Positions 3,238-10,832 of a stretch of DNA of 10,832 bases are shown one piece after another. Source of the stretch: Candidatus Bathyarchaeota archaeon (GTDB lineage: Archaea > Thermoproteota > Bathyarchaeia > Bathyarchaeales > UBA233); assembly GCA_029907045.1 (NCBI GenBank), contig JARYMR010000043.1, positions 1-10,832 of the forward strand, in the 5' to 3' direction. Position numbers and translations under genes: made by a program. Every line of letters starts with the position of its first letter. Positions within the stretch are counted from its first letter, which is position 1. The notes beneath the pieces are model-generated. The model saw nothing but the letters and a program-made list of their open reading frames with translations. It was not told the origin of the DNA and ran no database searches.

Positions 3238-4542
3238 TTACTTTAGCATTTTCAAAACTTCCTCAGCTTTTTCAATAGTATAATTTATATCTTCAGCGGT
3301 GTGGGCGGCGGAAATGTGGCATCTTTTGTTTGGTTTGGGTAGGATGAAGACTCCTCTTTTCATCATTTCTTTTTGAAACTTCATAAACAGCTCATTTTTT
3401 GAAGATAAGGTGTCTCTATAATTGACAATTTCTTTTTTTGTAAATAGTATTTGAAAAACTGAACCGAAACCAACCATTTGAGCTTCAAATTTCAATTTGG
3501 CAACTATTCTATTGAGTTGATTTCTAACCTCTTCTCCAAGCTTAAAGAGATGCTTATGCACTTCATTTTTCTCTAATTCTTCTATTGTTGCAAGGGTGGC
3601 AGCCATAGATATGGGATTTCCGTTAAAAGTGCCTCCATAATCCACATTGCCCGTTGGCCTAAAATGTTCCATCATGTCCTTTCTTCCGCAAACTGCTGCT
3701 ACCGGGAAACCGTTTGCCATGGCTTTGGCAAATGTTGTCAAGTCTGGTGTTACATTGAAAATTTTTTGGGCTCCACCTAAATGGTGACGGAAACCAGTAA
3801 CTACTTCATCAAAGATCAGTACAATATCATATTCTCGGGTGATTTCCCTCAAAAATTTTAGGAAATCCTCTTTTGGTGTGATGCATGTGGCGCTGCCGTG
3901 AAGGATTGGTTCCGTTATTAACGCTGCAATCTCATTATGATGCCTTTTTATTGCTTTCTCCACAGCCTCTTGATCATTAAAGGGAACAATAATTACTTGT
4001 TTTGCAGTATCCTCAGTGATGCCTGCGGTATCTGGGACTGGCGTTGGGCATTTTTTGGGTCCAGCTTCTTTCAATGTTGGATTCGAACTGAAAGACACTA
4101 TGTCATGCCATCCGTGGTATGCACCTTCAAACTTTACAATTTTGCTTTTTCCAGTGTAAGCTCTCGCTAAACGGATAGCATGATAAGTGGCCTCTGTGCC
4201 TGTGTTACAAAACCTAACCATTTGGGCTGAGGGAACATGAGCTACAATTTTTTTGGCAACTTTAACCTCCAACTCATTGCAGAGACCATAAATTACGCCT
4301 TCATTTAACTGTTTTTTAACGGCAGCTGAAATGCTTGAATGGGCATGTCCCAAAATTACAGGTCCAAAAGCCAAATGATAATCAATGTATTGGTTGCCAT
4401 CCACATCGTAAATCCTAGAACCTTTAGCTTTTGATATGAAAATGGGACAGGGATCAAAGAACCGTAAGGCGCTGTGAACGCCCCCTGGCGTAAGTTTTTT
4501 TGCCTCTTCAAAGAGTTTTTTTGAATTTTTCATCTCTTTCAT
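3238..4542 (-). CDS. Class III PLP aminotransferase, glutamate-1-semialdehyde aminomutase superfamily
   Basis: A 434-residue cytosolic PLP enzyme (COG0001-like). Visible family features are TPGGVHSALR (18-27), YDVDGNQYIDY (45-55), NTGTEATYHAIRLAR (113-127) for phosphate binding, EGAYHGWHD (139-147), IFDEVVTGFRH with D245 contacting the pyridine nitrogen, FAKAMANGFP with Schiff-base lysine K273, and the late SAAHTAEDI. It differs from authentic HemL where that family has its glycine-rich G-G-G-x-P after the lysine and around EPILHGSAT, and no haem genes are nearby. It more likely transaminates an amino or beta-amino acid; beta-phenylalanine aminotransferases belong to this superfamily. ATG 4542 is chosen over TTG 4560 because a GTGAT ribosome-binding-like sequence lies 4 bases upstream. 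It follows the thiolase-DUF35 pair on the same strand after 102 bases. Superfamily is sure; substrate is inferred. Confidence 0.88.
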   Translation of the reverse strand: MKEMKNSKKLFEEAKKLTPGGVHSALRFFDPCPIFISKAKGSRIYDVDGNQYIDYHLAFGPVILGHAHSSISAAVKKQLNEGVIYGLCNELEVKVAKKIVAHVPSAQMVRFCNTGTEATYHAIRLARAYTGKSKIVKFEGAYHGWHDIVSFSSNPTLKEAGPKKCPTPVPDTAGITEDTAKQVIIVPFNDQEAVEKAIKRHHNEIAALITEPILHGSATCITPKEDFLKFLREITREYDIVLIFDEVVTGFRHHLGGAQKIFNVTPDLTTFAKAMANGFPVAAVCGRKDMMEHFRPTGNVDYGGTFNGNPISMAATLATIEELEKNEVHKHLFKLGEEVRNQLNRIVAKLKFEAQMVGFGSVFQILFTKKEIVNYRDTLSSKNELFMKFQKEMMKRGVFILPKPNKRCHISAAHTAEDINYTIEKAEEVLKMLK

Positions 4543-4590
4543 GCTGATCACTTCACACAATTAAGTCTATTATAGGGGCACTGCCTAAGA

Positions 4591-4598
4591 ATTTTATC
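4591..4598 (-). promoter_or_regulatory. Possible TATA-like box upstream of the aminotransferase
   Basis: On the minus strand GATAAAAT (4598 to 4591) lies about 50 bases before the aminotransferase ATG. A start site about 26 bases downstream would leave a leader of roughly 25-30 bases with the GTGAT sequence. A second candidate, CTATAATA at 4576-4569, is nearby. The 102-base gap after DUF35 is long enough for a separate promoter, but read-through from the thiolase is equally possible. Confidence 0.22.
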
Positions 4599-4644
4599 GG
4601 GAATATGTGGTTCACGAGTATCACATTTTTAATAATGGGATAGA

Positions 4645-5082
4645 CTATGTTGGTTTAAAAATGATTACTGGGAAACCGTCAGACATCATTTGAGCTGTTA
4701 TTTTTACGCGAATCCCAATTTTAATATTTTCTAAATTTATGTTTTCGAGCAATCCCATAACTTTTACTCCTTCCAATGTTTTGGCTATGGCGATAATAAA
4801 ATCGTGCTTGTAATGTTCAAAGCCTTGAGGTTTTAGGTAAGCTTGGGTGAAGGTTTCAATTTCACCATCCAAGAGTTGAATCCATTTCATATTTGAATTT
4901 AGGCAGTTGGGGCAGTCACCTTGAGGTGGATAATAGATTTCACCACATTTTTTGCATTTCGTGGCGTATACTTTTCCATTTTTTAATCCTTCCCAATAAG
5001 TTTTCGTCTTAAAAATCGGAATGTCATGTATAAATGTTAGCGACCTACTTTTCATGGTTGGATATTCACCCATCTCAGACAT
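4645..5082 (-). CDS. DUF35 zinc-ribbon/OB-fold protein, acyl-CoA scaffold partner of the thiolase
   Basis: A 145-residue protein with a helical N terminus, a rubredoxin-like zinc ribbon (C43, C46, C57, C60; CKKCG then GDCPNC) and a C-terminal OB-fold barrel (WIQLLDGEIETFTQAYL onward), the standard two-domain DUF35 layout (COG1545). In methanogens the homologous protein bridges acetoacetyl-CoA thiolase and HMG-CoA synthase and binds the CoA arm, channelling intermediates. Here the thiolase gene is immediately upstream but no HMG-CoA synthase is present. ATG 5082 is preferred: AAGGTGA (5094-5088) sits 5 bases upstream, an excellent match to the archaeal anti-Shine-Dalgarno. A GTG at 5091 overlapping the thiolase stop (GTGA) is the alternative and would add three residues. 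Close spacing implies coupled translation and a physical complex. Confidence 0.92.
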   Translation of the reverse strand: MSEMGEYPTMKSRSLTFIHDIPIFKTKTYWEGLKNGKVYATKCKKCGEIYYPPQGDCPNCLNSNMKWIQLLDGEIETFTQAYLKPQGFEHYKHDFIIAIAKTLEGVKVMGLLENINLENIKIGIRVKITAQMMSDGFPVIIFKPT

Positions 5083-5087
5083 TATTT

Positions 5088-6245
5088 TCACCTTCTAAGT
5101 ATGGTTACATAACAATATTGCCCTGTCATGCCGACATTATGCGCTAACCCTACATATTTCTTTAGGGGAACTTGTCTCTTACCTGCTTCATTTCTTAATT
5201 GTTTTACTAATTCATAAATCATCGAACAACCTGTAGCGCCTAATGGGTGACCTTTAGCCTTTAATCCTCCATCAATGTTAACTGAAATCTTTCCGCCTAT
5301 CCATGTCTCCTCTTCATCTATTAGTTTTCCCCCTTCGCCTTTTTTGCAAAACCCTAAATCTTCATACGCCATTATTTCAGCGATGGTGAAGCAGTCATGA
5401 ACCTCCGCTACTTCAACCTCTTCTGGATGAACCTTAGCCAGTTTGTATGCCATTTCGGAAGCAGTTCTTGCAGATTTTATTGATGTGAAGTTTTCTCGGC
5501 GTGTGTGGTTACCTGTATCCGCTCCGCATCCTATGGCTTGAATCCATATGGGATCTTCAATCTTAAGATCCTTAATGCTATCTTCAGATGCTAATATGAC
5601 AGCCGCTGCTCCATCACTTATTGGACAGCAATCATAGAGCTTAAGAGGCCAACAGACAATTCTTGAATTCAAAGCTTGCTCCAGAGTTATCTCTTTTTGA
5701 AAGTGGGCTTTCGGATTTCTTGCAGCATAGTAATGATTTTTAACTGCAACTTTAGCAAGTTGTTCCTCCGTTGTTCCATACTTTGCCTTGTGCGCTGTTG
5801 CAAATAACGCGTAATAAGCTGCAAAACTTGTACCAAACATGTGAAACTCCCACATGTAGCATCCGCGACCTCCTACAGCCGTCGATGTGGATGTGTCGAC
5901 TTCGCTCATTTTCTCAACGCCAATGGCGATAGCCGTATCGACATACCCAGAGGAAATAGCGTTATAAGCAGTAAATATGGCCGCGCTTCCTGAGGCGCAA
6001 GCAGCCTCAACCCTTAATGGTCCTTTTGAGGCAAAGCCAACATATTCGTTTATTAATGGAGCAGGGTACATATCATAGAGCCTGTTTCCTACAGAGCCAA
6101 CAACACTAAATTCTACATCCTTTTGGTTGATTCCAGCATCTTCAATTGCCTCTTTAACAGCTTCAAAGGCTATTTCATAATATGTTGCATCCGTTCTCCT
6201 TCCAAACTTTGAGTTCCCAACACCAATAACCGCTACTTTCTTCAC
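5088..6245 (-). CDS. Thiolase, SCP-x/archaeal acetyl-CoA acetyltransferase type
   Basis: A 385-residue thiolase (COG0183). The nucleophile is C83 in EAACASGSAAI. Other active-site elements are H283 in EVHDCFTIAE and H333 in KGHPLGATG. In place of the classical second catalytic cysteine motif (C-x-G-x-G) near the C terminus it has AHNVGMTG (H369), as in SCP2/SCP-x thiolases and the archaeal enzymes that work with DUF35. It should interconvert a 3-oxoacyl-CoA plus CoA with acetyl-CoA plus a shorter acyl-CoA; direction cannot be read from sequence. The start is a GTG at 6245; an ATG a few bases upstream is followed at once by a stop, and GGGGAT just upstream may bind the ribosome. It is first gene of the leftward arm and its mRNA continues into DUF35. 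With no HMG-CoA synthase alongside, a catabolic role next to the CoA-transferase is favoured over mevalonate synthesis. Confidence 0.92.
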   Translation of the reverse strand: MKKVAVIGVGNSKFGRRTDATYYEIAFEAVKEAIEDAGINQKDVEFSVVGSVGNRLYDMYPAPLINEYVGFASKGPLRVEAACASGSAAIFTAYNAISSGYVDTAIAIGVEKMSEVDTSTSTAVGGRGCYMWEFHMFGTSFAAYYALFATAHKAKYGTTEEQLAKVAVKNHYYAARNPKAHFQKEITLEQALNSRIVCWPLKLYDCCPISDGAAAVILASEDSIKDLKIEDPIWIQAIGCGADTGNHTRRENFTSIKSARTASEMAYKLAKVHPEEVEVAEVHDCFTIAEIMAYEDLGFCKKGEGGKLIDEEETWIGGKISVNIDGGLKAKGHPLGATGCSMIYELVKQLRNEAGKRQVPLKKYVGLAHNVGMTGQYCYVTILRR

Positions 6246-6389
6246 CTACATCCCCGTAATTTTTAACTTTATTATCTGTTAATTTGAGACTTTATAAAAT
6301 TTGAGAGGAAATAGCTGAAATTTTAATAAGCAATAAACTATCAATCATATTACTCTATTAATCATAAAATGAGGAAAAGGTGGGTATTG
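6246..6389. promoter_or_regulatory. Divergent promoter region between thiolase and CoA-transferase arms
   Basis: This 144-base A/T-rich stretch separates two divergent transcription units. TTTATAAA at 6291-6298 is self-complementary; on the minus strand it would place the thiolase start site near 6268, leaving a leader of about 22 bases. For the plus strand TTTTAATAAG at 6321-6330, preceded by purines (GAAA) as a possible BRE, predicts a start near 6350. An AGGTGG ribosome-binding sequence at 6378-6383 lies 6 bases before ATG 6390. A heptamer AATCATA occurs twice between the plus-strand box and the gene. Shared control of both arms is likely. Confidence 0.5.
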
Positions 6390-7307
6390 ATGAGTGAGGA
6401 TAAGCTTATGGGCATGAGTGAGGCAATTAAAAAATTCGTTCATGACGGAGATACAGTTTATATGGCAGGATTTACGCATCTTATTCCCTTTTCCGCTGGG
6501 CATGAAATAATCCGACAGAAGAAAAGAAATTTAATATTAGTTAGGCCTACCCCAGATCTAATTTATGATCAAATGATAGCGGCTGGATGCGCCAAAAAAT
6601 TGGTTTTTAGCTGGGCTGGGAACCCTGGTGTAGGTTCTTTGCATGCGTTTAGACGAGCTGTTGAAAAAGGATATCCGAACAAAATTGAAATTGAAGAATA
6701 TTCACACTTTGCTTTAATTTCCCGTTTAGTTGCTGGAGCTATGAACATTCCTTTCTTTCCCCTCAAATCTCTTATAGGATCCGACTTACCAAAGTATAAT
6801 CTTCAGATAAAGACCTTAAAGTGTCCTTATACTGGGCAAGAAGTTTGTGTAGTTCCACCATTAAATCCCGATGTTGCAATTATACACGCCCAAAGAGCTG
6901 ACAAAAATGGCAATGTTCAAGTATGGGGAATTTTAGGCGACCACAAGGAAGCTGCTTTTGCCGCAAAAAAAGTTATTGTTAGTGTGGAAGAGATTGTGGA
7001 TGAATATGTGGTTCGAAGCGACCCAAATAGGACTTTAATACCAGACTTTGTGGTCCATGCATTAATTGAAGAATCCTGGGCAGCTCATCCATCATATGCA
7101 CAAGGATATTACGATAGAGATAACGAATTTTACATAGAGTGGGATACAATATCGAGGGATGAAAATTTGCTAGAGAAATATATCGATGAGTGGGTTTACA
7201 GCATTGAAAATCGCTTTGAATATATTAAAAAACTTGGCGTAGAAAAGTTGGTAAAGTTGAGACCGAAGAGCTTTTACAGTATTGCAATCAACTACGGATG
7301 GTATTAG
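6390..7307 (+). CDS. CoA-transferase family I, subunit A (GctA/IpdA-like)
   Basis: A 305-residue alpha subunit of a glutaconate CoA-transferase-type enzyme (COG1788). Visible are the N-terminal HDGDTVYMAGFTH turn, RNLILVRPTPDLIYD, the block FSWAGNPGVGSLHAFRRAVE, EEYSHFALISRLVAGAMNIPF, the LIGSDLPKY segment, and PLNPDVAIIHAQRADKNGNV, which together match the GctA/IpdA branch rather than the SCOT or AtoD branch. With subunit B it would move CoA from a donor such as acetyl-CoA to a free acid. ATG 6390 is chosen because AGGTGG lies 6 bases upstream; an ATG at 6369 would add seven basic residues (MRKRWVL) and lacks a ribosome binding site. It is first gene of the rightward arm, with subunit B starting 4 bases after its stop. 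The acid substrate cannot be deduced from the sequence. Confidence 0.9.
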   Translation: MSEDKLMGMSEAIKKFVHDGDTVYMAGFTHLIPFSAGHEIIRQKKRNLILVRPTPDLIYDQMIAAGCAKKLVFSWAGNPGVGSLHAFRRAVEKGYPNKIEIEEYSHFALISRLVAGAMNIPFFPLKSLIGSDLPKYNLQIKTLKCPYTGQEVCVVPPLNPDVAIIHAQRADKNGNVQVWGILGDHKEAAFAAKKVIVSVEEIVDEYVVRSDPNRTLIPDFVVHALIEESWAAHPSYAQGYYDRDNEFYIEWDTISRDENLLEKYIDEWVYSIENRFEYIKKLGVEKLVKLRPKSFYSIAINYGWY

Positions 7308-7311
7308 TATC

Positions 7312-8094
7312 ATGAAGCAAAATAATTTGGAATATACTAAATCTGAACTTATGACGATAGCTGCAGCGCGAGAACTACGAGACCATGAGGTGGTTTTTGT
7401 AGGAATTGGTTTACCTAACTTGGCCGCCAACTTGGCAAAACGGATACACGCCCCAAACCTTATAATGATATATGAAGCTGGGGTTATAGGAGCAAATCCT
7501 TCAAGACTGCCTCTTTCAATAGGTGACCCTTGCTTGGTTTCAGGTTCCCTAAGTGTTTGCTCAATGTTCGAAGTTTTCAGCATTTACTTACAAGCCGGAA
7601 GAATTGATGTGGGATTTCTAGGGGGTGCACAGATAGACAGGCATGGAAATATTAACTCGACTGTGATCGGAAACTACGAAAACCCCAAAGTCAGGCTGCC
7701 CGGAAGTGGAGGAGGCTGCGATATAGCCTCGTTAGCTAAAAAGTTTGTAGTTATAACGCCGCATGATATAAGAAGGTTTCCTGAAAGAGTTGACTTTATC
7801 ACCAGTCCGGGCTTTCTTGCCGGAAAAGAAGAGCGCCAAAAATTAATGCTAGGAGGATATGGACCTACCAAAGTAATAACGGATCTGGCAATCATGGGGT
7901 TTGATGAAGATACTGGCGAAATGGTGCTGGAGTGTCTCCACCCTGGAGTGAAAGTTGAGGACGTGAAGAAAAACACAGGTTGGGATATTAAAGTATCAAA
8001 GGATTTAAAGATTACGAAAGAACCTTCACAAATAGAAATTTTAACTCTTCGACAGCTTGATCCCTATGGGATTTACCTAAAGAAACGTGAATAA
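7312..8094 (+). CDS. CoA-transferase family I, subunit B (GctB/IpdB-like) with catalytic glutamate
   Basis: A 260-residue beta subunit (COG2057). YTKSELMTIAAARELRDHE opens the domain, VFVGIGLPNLAANLAK follows, and E55 in IYEAGVIG lies where glutaconate CoA-transferase of Acidaminococcus carries its covalent catalytic glutamate, beta-E54. Later motifs are GGAQIDRHGNIN and PGSGGGCDIASLAKK, both typical of the Gct branch. Presence of the glutamate favours a true CoA-transferase over the related IpdAB ring-opening hydrolases. ATG 7312 follows the subunit A stop by 4 bases; a TTG at 7282 would overlap subunit A and only adds an unconserved tail. The heterodimer acts in the cytosol, presumably making the CoA thioester that the divergent thiolase cleaves. 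Confidence 0.9.
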   Translation: MKQNNLEYTKSELMTIAAARELRDHEVVFVGIGLPNLAANLAKRIHAPNLIMIYEAGVIGANPSRLPLSIGDPCLVSGSLSVCSMFEVFSIYLQAGRIDVGFLGGAQIDRHGNINSTVIGNYENPKVRLPGSGGGCDIASLAKKFVVITPHDIRRFPERVDFITSPGFLAGKEERQKLMLGGYGPTKVITDLAIMGFDEDTGEMVLECLHPGVKVEDVKKNTGWDIKVSKDLKITKEPSQIEILTLRQLDPYGIYLKKRE

Positions 8095-8100
8095 GTGTGT

Positions 8101-8116
8101 AAGGTATTATTGCCTT
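8101..8116 (+). terminator. Small hairpin after CoA-transferase subunit B
   Basis: AAGGTA, loop TTAT, TGCCTT forms a 6-bp stem (one G-T pair) seven bases past the subunit B stop. It is followed by TTAAATC rather than a proper T run. It may protect or end the CoA-transferase mRNA ahead of the permease's own promoter. Confidence 0.25.
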
Positions 8117-8212
8117 TAAATCTATGCATACCAGTAAGATGTTCAGAGCGAACTTAGCTTACCCTTGAGGAGTTCTTTTAAGAGAATATGGTTTTGTTGG
8201 TTAAATAACAAA

Positions 8213-8222
8213 GCTTAAAAAG
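8213..8222 (+). promoter_or_regulatory. TATA-like box of the permease gene
   Basis: GCTTAAAAAG, preceded by purine-rich CAAA as a possible BRE, lies about 40 bases before the TTG start of the permease. A transcription start about 26 bases downstream falls near 8243 and leaves a short leader holding GGAAGGGAAGG (8244-8254), a strong purine-rich ribosome binding region. The remainder of the 162-base gap (8095-8256) shows no gene. Confidence 0.42.
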
Positions 8223-8256
8223 AAATCATACGTATCTAAAAACGGAAGGGAAGGCT

Positions 8257-9855
8257 TTGGCTGAAGTCAAGTTTGCTTTTCCAAGAAAGGCAACTGGATT
8301 GGTCAGAGAGTTAGGCTGGTGGTCAGCTTTCTCCGTTTCGCTTAGCTACACTATTGGCAGCGGAATAAACTATTGGTCTGTGCAGGCTTCTTATTGGCAT
8401 CCTGGATCCATAATTCCGGTGGCTTATATTATTGGTGCTTTGCCAGCGATTTTCTTGGCTTATGTAATTACTGAAATGGGAATAATGATGCCGAGGTCTG
8501 GAGGAAGCTACATATACGTATCACGGGTATTAGATCCGCATGTGGGCTTTCTTGGAGACTGGTTGTATTTTGTAGCTAACAACTTTGCCACTGGAGTTTT
8601 GGCTGTAATAGGCGCTGGATTCTGGGTTAAAGTGATTAACCTACTGGGTCATGCCACTGGCAATACAGCTTGGATCGAGTTTGCCCTTGACAATACAGGG
8701 TTGGGTATGATCGCTGTGATAATAGTTACTCTTTATACATTGTTATCATTGCTGGGAATCCGAGTGTTCAGATGGTATGTTGCAGGATTAGTTGCCATAG
8801 GCATTGTAGGAAGCTTCCTTGGGGTGGGCGCCACTTTCTACGGAATTATGAATCCAACTTATGTGAAAGAAGCTTGGAATCTAACCTACGGTGCCGGGGC
8901 TGACGCATGGGGAGAGATACGACAAGTAGCTATTGATAATGGTTGGGCTGATTATGTGGCAAGTGCCACTGAGGAGGCTGGCGGCACTGGAGGAGCAACA
9001 ATCCTTAATTTCGTAGATACTTTCTGGGCTTACTGGGGAACCACGGCAGCATGCTACTTTGGTGGAGAAATGAAATCTCCAAAATCGGGCTTTATACTGG
9101 GCGTCTTTGCTGCCACACTATTCGTAATGTTCTGGTATGTTGCAACAGTTATCGGCGTGTACACGGCCTACGGGGACTTCGTCAGCCAATACTGTTACGT
9201 TTATGGAGAAGGATACACCGACCAAGTAACTACAATGACAATGATGGATCCAAGCTTGCCACTCTTCACAGTACCCTTAGCCCATGGGCAAGTGTGGCTT
9301 CAAGCAATATTTGCTTTCATCCCAGCCCTATGGATCTCCAACTGTGCCGGGGCAACCTTACTTGTGGGTCCAAGACAACCTTTTGCATGGGCTTTCGACA
9401 GATTCTTCCCAGAAGCCTTTAACCGCGTGAATGAGCGCTTCCACTCACCCCATTGGTCAGTCATCTTATGCGCGGCGCTTTCCTACCTGTTTATACCCCT
9501 AAGTCTTGGAGGCGTTTTCGCCGCAACCGTAGATGCAACTTTCATCTTCATCATTAGCCAACTCCTCATAGCCTTTGCAGGCGTAATACTGCCTTATAGG
9601 CGTCCGGACATTTGGGAAAGAGGGTTTAAGGCTGTCTTTGCTGGCATACCCGTGATAAGCCTATGCGGTGCTTTGTCAATTTTGTTCTGGGTTTGGGGAC
9701 TAGCAGTGAGCGCATCTTGGCTAGATCCTTGGGGCATGTTGTATTTGGCCTTATGGGTTTTCATAGGCTCCCTAATATGGTTCGCCTTCGCAGAACGCAA
9801 CAGAAGAATTGGCATTGCATTACAGAACATTTACGGTGAAATACCACCAGCTTAA
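8257..9855 (+). CDS. APC-superfamily amino acid permease
   Basis: A 532-residue integral membrane transporter (COG0531/PF13520-like) with about 12 hydrophobic segments. TM1 carries the substrate-site turn as SYTIGSGINY (30-39). The conserved helix 2-3 region reads YVITEMGIMMPRSGG followed by SYIYVSR (69-90), GGEMKSPKSG (269-278) matches the family's E-x-K/R-N-P motif, and RQPFAWAFDRFFPEAFNRVN (373-392) is the usual cytoplasmic loop. Two long polar loops are present, about 200-248 (Gly/Ala/acid-rich) and 306-338 (Tyr-rich). The start is TTG 8257: it has GGAAGG-type sequence upstream, and the first in-frame ATG is past TM2 (residue 74), too late to be real. It has its own promoter but follows the CoA-transferase genes, so it may import the amino acid that the cluster degrades. 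Substrate is not readable from the sequence. Confidence 0.88.
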   Translation: MAEVKFAFPRKATGLVRELGWWSAFSVSLSYTIGSGINYWSVQASYWHPGSIIPVAYIIGALPAIFLAYVITEMGIMMPRSGGSYIYVSRVLDPHVGFLGDWLYFVANNFATGVLAVIGAGFWVKVINLLGHATGNTAWIEFALDNTGLGMIAVIIVTLYTLLSLLGIRVFRWYVAGLVAIGIVGSFLGVGATFYGIMNPTYVKEAWNLTYGAGADAWGEIRQVAIDNGWADYVASATEEAGGTGGATILNFVDTFWAYWGTTAACYFGGEMKSPKSGFILGVFAATLFVMFWYVATVIGVYTAYGDFVSQYCYVYGEGYTDQVTTMTMMDPSLPLFTVPLAHGQVWLQAIFAFIPALWISNCAGATLLVGPRQPFAWAFDRFFPEAFNRVNERFHSPHWSVILCAALSYLFIPLSLGGVFAATVDATFIFIISQLLIAFAGVILPYRRPDIWERGFKAVFAGIPVISLCGALSILFWVWGLAVSASWLDPWGMLYLALWVFIGSLIWFAFAERNRRIGIALQNIYGEIPPA

Positions 9856-9858
9856 ACC

Positions 9859-10545
9859 TTAATTACCCATTTTTCTTTTAATTTTTGCATTTACTATTGC
9901 AAGGTAATATCCACGCAAAATTCCCGGTTTCTTAATTACCTTTATTCCCTCATAATCTGTTCTTTGCAACTTAATCTTGTAATCTTCAGGTTTTAAACCA
10001 TACTTCTCAATATTTGCCTTCAGCTTGTTAATGTGATTTTGAACAGCCTCCTTCAACCTTCTTTTTGTAGCCTCTTCTTTTTTGATGCCACCTTCTTCAG
10101 CAATTTTTTTAAGCTCATACTTAGTCAAGCTCAGCATAAGCAAAGTTACGTCTGCTAGGATAAAAAGCAAAATTATGCTTGGCCACGACAAAAAAGTCCA
10201 ATACCCCCACTCAAAATTTGAAGGAAGTATTACGCCTCTCTGCCATAAAATGGCCAAGACAACCACAATCATGAAATAAATCAGAGTAACAAAATTTAGA
10301 ACCTTATTCGCCCTTATCATTTTTCTAACCTTACCAGATCGCCCTATTTTCTTTAAAACTTTCTGGGTTTCCTTGCTAAAGTATTTGAGATATGCGGAGT
10401 CTAAACCAGTAGTTTTAGTTTTCATTACCAACTCCTTTGGATCACGTATCGAAGCGCTTCTTAAACCGTCAAAGTAGCTAATTACAGAAACCAACTCGTT
10501 CGATACTTTCTCAGCCTTTTTTAAATCCTCCTTCGTCCACTTCAC
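9859..10545 (-). CDS. Unrecognised two-helix membrane protein with basic cytoplasmic tails
   Basis: A 228-residue protein I cannot assign to a family. Residues 1-80 are charged and mostly helical, with a Lys/Arg-rich stretch (64-82). TM1 spans about 83-101 and TM2 about 120-141, joined by a short aromatic loop (NFEWGYW). Residues 142-190 are strongly charged (KKIAEEGGIKKEEATKRRLK) and probably coiled coil, and the C terminus (190-228) is basic with a beta-like segment. By positive-inside reasoning both tails are cytoplasmic. The start is GTG 10545; an in-frame stop lies three codons upstream and no clear ribosome binding site is seen. Its stop is 3 bases from the permease stop, so the two genes converge and their transcripts must overlap or end very closely. 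A membrane anchor or scaffold is possible, but no function is claimed. Confidence 0.75.
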   Translation of the reverse strand: MKWTKEDLKKAEKVSNELVSVISYFDGLRSASIRDPKELVMKTKTTGLDSAYLKYFSKETQKVLKKIGRSGKVRKMIRANKVLNFVTLIYFMIVVVLAILWQRGVILPSNFEWGYWTFLSWPSIILLFILADVTLLMLSLTKYELKKIAEEGGIKKEEATKRRLKEAVQNHINKLKANIEKYGLKPEDYKIKLQRTDYEGIKVIKKPGILRGYYLAIVNAKIKRKMGN

Positions 10546-10608
10546 TTCTAATCAACTCTAAACCTTGTCGCCGAAGATTCCCAATGAAGATAATAATAAG
10601 GGCGTAAG

Positions 10609-10616
10609 ATTATAAG
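10609..10616 (-). promoter_or_regulatory. TATA-like box upstream of the two-helix membrane protein
   Basis: On the minus strand CTTATAAT (10616 to 10609) lies in the 86-base gap between the stop of the upstream partial gene and the GTG at 10545. A start site about 26 bases downstream gives a leader of roughly 40 bases. It is judged on sequence resemblance only. Confidence 0.3.
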
Positions 10617-10631
10617 ACTTAAGTTTAGAAT

Positions 10632-10832
10632 TTACAGCCTAACTTCCTTATACCACTTCTTCTTTGTTCCAACCTCTGCCCTCTTCAACCAATCCTTAGT
10701 TTTAGGCTCCTCATCAATATACCCTAAAATTTGATCAATTTTTGAAGTTACATCGGCAACATCCTCTTCAGAAAGTTGCTTATACATGGAACAAGCAGCC
10801 CTAACCTTCTTCAGGTTGGTTGTAGCCGTATA
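10632..10832 (-). CDS. C-terminal fragment (66 aa) of an unrecognised protein
   Basis: A minus-strand frame is open from the window edge to TAA at 10634-10632. Its 66 residues look protein-like: an amphipathic, charged helix region (KQLSEEDVADVTSKIDQILG) and a Trp/Lys-rich end (KDWLKRAEVG, KKKWYKEVRL). No start is visible except an internal Met at fragment residue 16, so the gene probably begins outside the window. No domain is recognised. It precedes the two-helix membrane protein on the same strand by 86 bases and could share its operon. Confidence 0.6.
   Translation of the reverse strand, partial: YTATTNLKKVRAACSMYKQLSEEDVADVTSKIDQILGYIDEEPKTKDWLKRAEVGTKKKWYKEVRL

Follow-up and report, generated by a model that had tools for sequence, protein, structure and literature searches.

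What could an aminotransferase, a thiolase with its DUF35 partner, a two-subunit CoA-transferase and an amino acid permease do together in an archaeal genome? We address this question for a stretch of 10,832 nucleotides (the window), positions 1 to 10,832 of contig JARYMR010000043.1 from a Candidatus Bathyarchaeota archaeon. The host is an uncultured archaeon, and the nearest relatives of the window genes belong to Bathyarchaeia. An earlier sequence-only reading of the cluster had proposed a degradation route for beta-amino acids, with transamination to a 3-oxo acid, transfer of CoA and thiolysis. We arrive at a probability of about 0.5 that the cluster serves this member of Bathyarchaeia as a cassette for breaking down a beta-amino acid other than 3-aminobutyrate, and we draw mainly on indirect evidence, namely what the closest relatives carry in the same place.

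An alignment of the transaminase with its homologues (A1, 27 rows) was scanned against genome contigs and returned 70 transaminase loci. Three of them hold close relatives of the window enzyme: L001 (85% identity) and L002 (74%), both named Candidatus Bathyarchaeota, and L003 (84-85%, cut by the contig end), named uncultured archaeon; the remaining loci do not exceed 50%. L001 belongs to genome G001 and L003 to genome G003. Both keep the layout of the window, with the transaminase at 84-85%, the permease at 90% and a 228-residue flanking gene at 84%. Between permease and transaminase, they have no thiolase, DUF35 or CoA-transferase, only a single gene for a beta-keto acid cleavage enzyme (BKACE; PF05853, 333.5 bits). 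The boundaries of the swap are sharp in the DNA, at the transaminase start and in the permease upstream region: blastn aligns the window with L001 at 80% over positions 3270-4550 and at 82.5% over 8201-10832, with nothing between. The window retains no BKACE remnant (best tblastn E 3.0), and PF05853 is absent from its cluster. Thus, next to one transaminase, the same slot is filled by either of two modules that both plausibly use up a 3-oxo acid, which supports the chemistry proposed earlier. What is new here is that the cleavage module is swapped while the transaminase and permease stay in place; each part by itself is of a known kind. The same alignment bears on the claim that the genes share a single divergent promoter: a divergent intergenic region with a TATA-like stretch is present, but the DNA in front of the permease (from 8201) has its homologue in L001, in which another gene precedes it, and the permease therefore need not share that promoter. 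A sigma-70 scan gave 17 promoter-like sites versus 13.9 +/- 3.4 in shuffles, which is uninformative for an archaeon.

At E 1e-70 or better, BKACE is found in 4 of the 256 genomes of G001's class (G001, G003, G235 and G237), and it adjoins the transaminase in the first two; no transaminase was found in the DNA retrieved for G235 and G237 (18 and 5.7 kb; BKACE 45-46%). Among 379 genomes drawn from the phylum, only G001 and G350 have it, and in G350 the gene (63-65%) immediately follows that of a 42% transaminase. The G350 run (L137 4355-11311) reads transaminase, BKACE, DUF1850, TAXI receptor, TRAP permease and a 2,4-diaminopentanoate dehydrogenase-like gene (below cut-off). Over the 10 pairings of five transaminase/BKACE couples, the identities of the two enzymes rise and fall together. 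Three further pairs of transaminase and BKACE clusters have longest contigs of equal size (79739, 26496 and 19250 bases), which suggests a common contig and not adjacency. One such pair joins transaminase and CoA-transferase subunit A (CtA) clusters (8655 bases, among the best 120 listed per search). These links, read by eye from the 120 rows listed per search, record sameness of size only; a missing link is uninformative, and the clusters appear to carry the contig of their representative. The equal 5674-base contigs of P0083 and P0165 were discounted, coming from two different sources. As to the direction of the replacement, we infer that BKACE is probably the older state of the slot, because in the tree the window groups with P0124 and L001 to the exclusion of P0174 and P0237.

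The pairing of BKACE and transaminase in G001, G003 and G350 would also suit a different order of reactions, modeled on Kat. In that order, CtA and subunit B (CtB) make the CoA ester of the beta-amino acid, the transaminase converts it to 3-oxoacyl-CoA and the thiolase cleaves the product, with BKACE in the relatives supplying 3-aminoacyl-CoA, the part that Kce plays in lysine fermentation. Thiolase, DUF35 and transaminase do lie on one strand of the window, a Kat-like nearness to thiolase. According to PMC3149608, Kat is HemL-like, in Cloacamonas its gene adjoins that of an acetoacetyl-CoA thiolase, and the enzyme used CoA and N-acetylcysteamine thioesters but not three free beta-amino acids. 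Against this order, lysine 2,3-aminomutase (TIGR00238) was detected in none of the six relatives searched, whereas 8 of 14 control genomes were positive; PF09043 was likewise silent in all six, as it was in the control. The BKACEs of L001 (322.9) and G350 (350) do not reach the KCE equivalog cut-off (382), and the glutamate of the Kce TGAE motif, which presumably takes part in amine binding, is absent in 8 of 8 aligned BKACEs. The likelihood of lysine fermentation via Kce and Kat is lowered, and we regard the Kat-like order as unlikely, if the best placed of the alternatives.

The four genes that replace BKACE form a unit of their own, which exists independently. Of the 379 phylum genomes, only two, G310 and G370, have a CtA at 80-81%. 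CtB-CtA is divergent from thiolase-DUF35 in G310 and from thiolase in G370, where the contig ends after the thiolase start; block DNA identity to the window is 70-76%. In the class, nine of the 256 genomes have CtA at E 1e-60 or better, and the best two, G143 (62%) and G216 (57%), show CtA-CtB-thiolase with a synthase-like and then a DUF35-type gene behind it. These two loci (L115 1691-6101 and L116 6359-10748) are collinear, and an aconitase X gene lies near in L116. The window-type transaminase was not found at the G310, G370, G143 or G216 loci in the DNA retrieved. The sequence-only reading had staked itself on the five genes staying together in relatives; the survey finds that they do not, and we reject the five genes as a conserved unit: G001 and G003 hold BKACE instead, and the four-gene block stands apart in G310.

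Such independence invites the view that two unrelated units have met. One would be a permease and a transaminase that handle another amine or amino acid, the other an acetoacetate or fatty acid CoA-transferase/thiolase unit that happened to land between them. The four-gene block of G310 without this transaminase is in keeping with this view, as are the further thiolase/DUF35 pairs that G001 and G003 have in acyl-CoA dehydrogenase operons. Near arginine deiminase-like (below cut-off) and carbamoyltransferase genes, G003 has a diverged permease-transaminase set (L135), and such sets may serve other amino acids. A chance landing, however, sits poorly with a block that replaces BKACE, likewise a 3-oxo acid enzyme, and with DUF35 and transaminase genes only 84 bp apart on one strand. 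We consider it rather improbable.

The transaminase itself does not look like glutamate-1-semialdehyde 2,1-aminomutase (GSAM). When the 256 class genomes were searched with it, 155 matched at E 1e-90 or better, and its own subfamily appeared in only three, G001, G002 and G003; in G002 the gene is split over two places of a scaffold with N runs. The five genomes next in rank are G197, G063, G161, G064 and G037. Heme-synthesis genes stand beside the transaminase in each of the four neighborhoods viewed (G197, G063, G161 and G037), with one heme gene per locus confirmed by Pfam (ALAD or porphobilinogen deaminase). We take these four as true GSAMs, and they serve as controls. Across A1, K273 and D245, which we assume to be the pyridoxal phosphate lysine and aspartate of class-III aminotransferases, are invariant in 27 of 27 rows, consistent with membership in that class. 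At the positions that we equate with Glu406 and the AGSG gating loop of GSAM, the rows divide. The AGSG loop is found in 4/4 heme-locus rows and 0/23 others; Lys-Arg stands in 16 of 27 rows, including the window and each of the 10 strict-family rows, and Glu-Thr in the heme-locus rows. The 16 Lys-Arg rows make one clade in the tree (98/95). The window enzyme falls short of the hemL equivalog cut-off of TIGR00713 (480.3 versus 527.3 bits) and reaches that of the broader PRK00062 subfamily (477.9 versus 398). Its best non-GSAM match in PDB is 6K8H, described in PMC10589169 as a Sphaerobacter beta-amino acid transaminase. Missing AGSG loop, Lys-Arg in place of Glu, score below the equivalog cut-off and gene context together led us to reject a GSAM/heme role. 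A biosynthetic set, with GSAM for tetrapyrroles and thiolase/DUF35 for mevalonate, is thus very improbable: GSAM models do give the best family scores, the window thiolase is closest to the archaeal acetoacetyl-CoA thiolase 6ESQ and L115 and L116 carry CtA-CtB-thiolase-synthase-like-DUF35, but the transaminase lacks the heme-locus AGSG loop and Glu, and there is no heme gene and no 3-hydroxy-3-methylglutaryl-CoA (HMG-CoA) synthase-like gene among the window genes scanned.

The other components also have the expected features. All genes named in the sequence-only reading are open where it placed them, on the same strands and with the same domains (table below). The CoA-transferase glutamate that it described as intact is so: Glu55 of CtB falls in the glutamate column of the glutaconate CoA-transferase 1POI_B, presumably the catalytic one, and is kept in 7 of 7 aligned CtB rows, window included. 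Two PF01144 subunits with a glutamate in B point to a Gct-type CoA-transferase. CtA probably starts at 6390, its identical database entry (P0001) having 305 aa, and other CtA homologues range from 97 to 60% identity (best 120 of 8000); CtB probably starts at 7312, read by eye. The longest transaminase frame has 440 aa, versus 434 aa in the database entry. Aligned to 6ESQ, the thiolase has the ACASGS cysteine, HDCF and GHPLG motifs, which we take to be catalytic. With these cysteine and histidine motifs and an adjoining DUF35 gene, whose frame overlaps that of the thiolase by 4 bases, it fits an SCP2-type thiolase with DUF35. The scan for an HMG-CoA synthase-like gene covered 10 window proteins.

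Features of the cluster and its flanks; positions are those of the whole window
Feature	Position	Strand	Basis or remark
HemL-like class-III aminotransferase, candidate beta-amino acid transaminase	3238..4560	-	PF00202 248.9 bits
Replacement block DUF35-thiolase / CtA-CtB	4551..8200	.	3.65 kb in place of the 0.94-kb L001 BKACE block
DUF35 / ChsH2-like zinc-ribbon OB protein, thiolase partner	4645..5091	-	PF12172 (zf-ChsH2) + PF01796 (OB_ChsH2_C)
SCP2-type (archaeal) thiolase	5088..6245	-	NF009228/PRK12578 621.9 bits, cut-off 485
Divergent intergenic region, TATA-like TTTATAAAATTT stretch	6246..6368	.	by-eye reading of the sequence
CoA-transferase subunit A (CtA), Gct-like	6369..7307	+	PF01144; best PDB match 1POI_A, E 1.7e-42
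CoA-transferase subunit B (CtB)	7312..8094	+	PF01144; 1POI_B E 2.2e-51
CtB glutamate 55 codon	7474-7476	+	alignment to 1POI_B
APC-superfamily amino acid permease	8257..9855	+	AA_permease_2 PF13520; 90% to L001 permease
Conserved flanking gene, 228 aa, membrane-like	9859..10545	-	84% to L001; common to L001/L003
Next conserved flanking gene, 3' part, cut by window end	10638..10832	-	tblastn 86% over 65 aa, residues 198-262

If the cluster is a beta-amino acid cassette, the APC permease would import the substrate, and the HemL-like transaminase would transfer the amino group of this substrate to, for instance, 2-oxoglutarate, leaving a free 3-oxo acid. CtA/CtB would move CoA onto that acid, and the thiolase with DUF35 would split the 3-oxoacyl-CoA into acetyl-CoA and a shorter acyl-CoA; in the close relatives, one BKACE would cleave the acid directly with acetyl-CoA. 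We infer both the substrate class and this order of reactions. As the sequence-only reading argued, only a beta-amino acid yields a 3-oxo acid directly by transamination. BKACE acts on a free 3-oxo acid (PMC11961710), and the same acid could be cleaved by CtA/CtB and thiolase after activation. The suggested conversion of 3-aminobutyrate to two acetyl-CoA fares worse. BKACE occupies the same slot in the relatives, and from acetoacetate and acetyl-CoA it yields only these two compounds again; 3-aminobutyrate is therefore an unlikely substrate if the transaminase has kept its substrate across the BKACE relatives. The proposed sequence of transamination, CoA transfer and thiolysis is partly supported: the transaminase lacks GSAM hallmarks and stands beside 3-oxo acid chemistry in several forms, but the five genes are separate in the nearest relatives. 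As a whole, the earlier interpretation is partly supported, and the observation behind it is confirmed.

Some more distant transaminases also have thiolases nearby. We tabulated neighbors for loci with the transaminase and another probe gene, leaving out the short loci L071-L114, L127, L128 and L131-L133. In 3 of 8 Archaeoglobi loci (L005, L012 and L040) thiolase/DUF35 lies beside a 45-46% transaminase. These three carry thiolase, acyl-CoA dehydrogenase and TAXI/TRAP genes, with glutamate dehydrogenase in L005 and L012. Among Bathyarchaeia with a 44-45% transaminase, L149 and L151 have thiolase/DUF35 and L150 has thiolase. An acetoacetate-CoA ligase is encoded a few genes off in L149 (790 bits) and L151 (770 bits; curated cut-off 521), and on a separate contig in G007. 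In L149 (1494-9698) and L151 (3780-13722) the transaminase is divergent from thiolase/DUF35, and a biotin carboxylase gene is nearby in L151. A wider version of the hypothesis, which we put forward tentatively and hold to be doubtful, is an undescribed cassette of Bathyarchaeia and related archaea that keeps the transaminase type and exchanges BKACE, CoA-transferase with thiolase/DUF35 or, next to the distant transaminases, an acetoacetate-type CoA ligase with thiolase/DUF35. A beta-amino acid that is longer or has two carboxyl groups might be its substrate; beta-glutamate, to give one example, would pass through 3-oxoglutarate to malonyl-CoA and acetyl-CoA. Methanogens and other organisms make beta-amino acids as compatible solutes, and beta-glutamate is released by methanogens.

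Several observations weigh against a beta-amino acid cassette. The complete gene set was seen together only in the window, and the BKACEs of G001 and G003 each match the query at 100%, so that they amount to about one observation. In family models and PDB alike, the transaminase still scores highest with GSAM. L149, L151 and L135 share the glutamate of the GSAM column, which hence is no mark of GSAM by itself. The transaminases of G350, L149 and L151 lie outside the Lys-Arg clade of the window, and that of L150 lies outside it or is not placed; those contexts are therefore parallels and not orthologues. The closest thiolase/DUF35 pair of G003 (84%/73%) is alone, with no CoA-transferase or transaminase in the 15 kb retrieved. 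A probe gene besides the transaminase occurs in only 14 of the 70 loci of the A1 scan. No probe gene was seen in L152 or L153, and of 12 broader-family loci one has BKACE, one has glutamate dehydrogenase 7 kb off and 10 are without probe genes.

Some further features of these regions can be described. Alongside permease and transaminase stand a metallophosphoesterase gene, a gene of 263-277 aa (no Pfam match) and a membrane-like one of 225-228 aa, at 9859-10832 in the window, 4873-7389 in L001 and 3356-9009 in L135. The 228-aa gene of the window has no Pfam match, and the gene cut by the window end has a full length of 263 aa in L001. The L135 set is diverged (metallophosphoesterase 43%, 263-aa gene 38%, transaminase 40%, permease 24%). 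At 1184-2437, the window encodes a protein of 417 aa that lacks Pfam and NCBIfam matches and, by eye, begins like a lipoprotein. A CRISPR-like array (L173 41-1462, G003 contig 56; 19 copies of a 37-base repeat at 73-78 base spacing) is located ~4 kb from the lone thiolase/DUF35 pair.

Should a beta-amino acid cassette be the correct reading, a widespread class of uncultured archaea would gain a route into beta-amino acids. The block replacement predicts that the product of one transaminase type is a substrate of both BKACE and the CoA-transferase. Many of the listed homologues are named glutamate-1-semialdehyde 2,1-aminomutase; this is likely a misannotation, which such a reading would correct.

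The sequence-only reading knew of no described pathway with this exact gene set, and none is described by title or abstract among the open-licence literature matches listed, although the parts are of known kinds, such as Kat (PMC3149608). The Kat/thiolase step in the variant lysine fermentation of Candidatus Cloacamonas acidaminovorans is among the nearest likenesses. There, too, a HemL-like class-III transaminase stands by a thiolase (PMC3149608), the chemistry concerns beta-amino compounds and a CoA-transferase belongs to the route; yet Kat needs CoA or N-acetylcysteamine thioesters, and its CoA-transferase is AtoA/AtoD. A putative Kat is also reported from deep-sea Thaumarchaeota (PMC8397731). 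A further difference is that lysine 2,3-aminomutase was not found in the six relatives searched. The beta-amino acid transaminases 6K8H, 2YKU and 4AO9, the last two presumably from Mesorhizobium and Variovorax, share the class-III superfamily of the window enzyme. In the available text of PMC10589169, 6K8H acts on beta-leucine, beta-homoalanine and others, and such enzymes are described singly, without a tie to CoA-transferase or thiolase. The CORE cycle (PMC11961710) follows the same logic, from a beta-alanine transaminase to BKACE and then to CoA transfer onto acetoacetate and thiolysis, but it is engineered and its 3-oxo acid is malonate semialdehyde. Glutaconate CoA-transferase GctAB (1POI) has the same two subunits and the same glutamate of B, whereas the window genes sit with a thiolase. 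The archaeal 6ESQ system, which we take to be a complex of acetoacetyl-CoA thiolase, HMG-CoA synthase and DUF35, shares the thiolase and DUF35 families with the window and differs from it in having the synthase.

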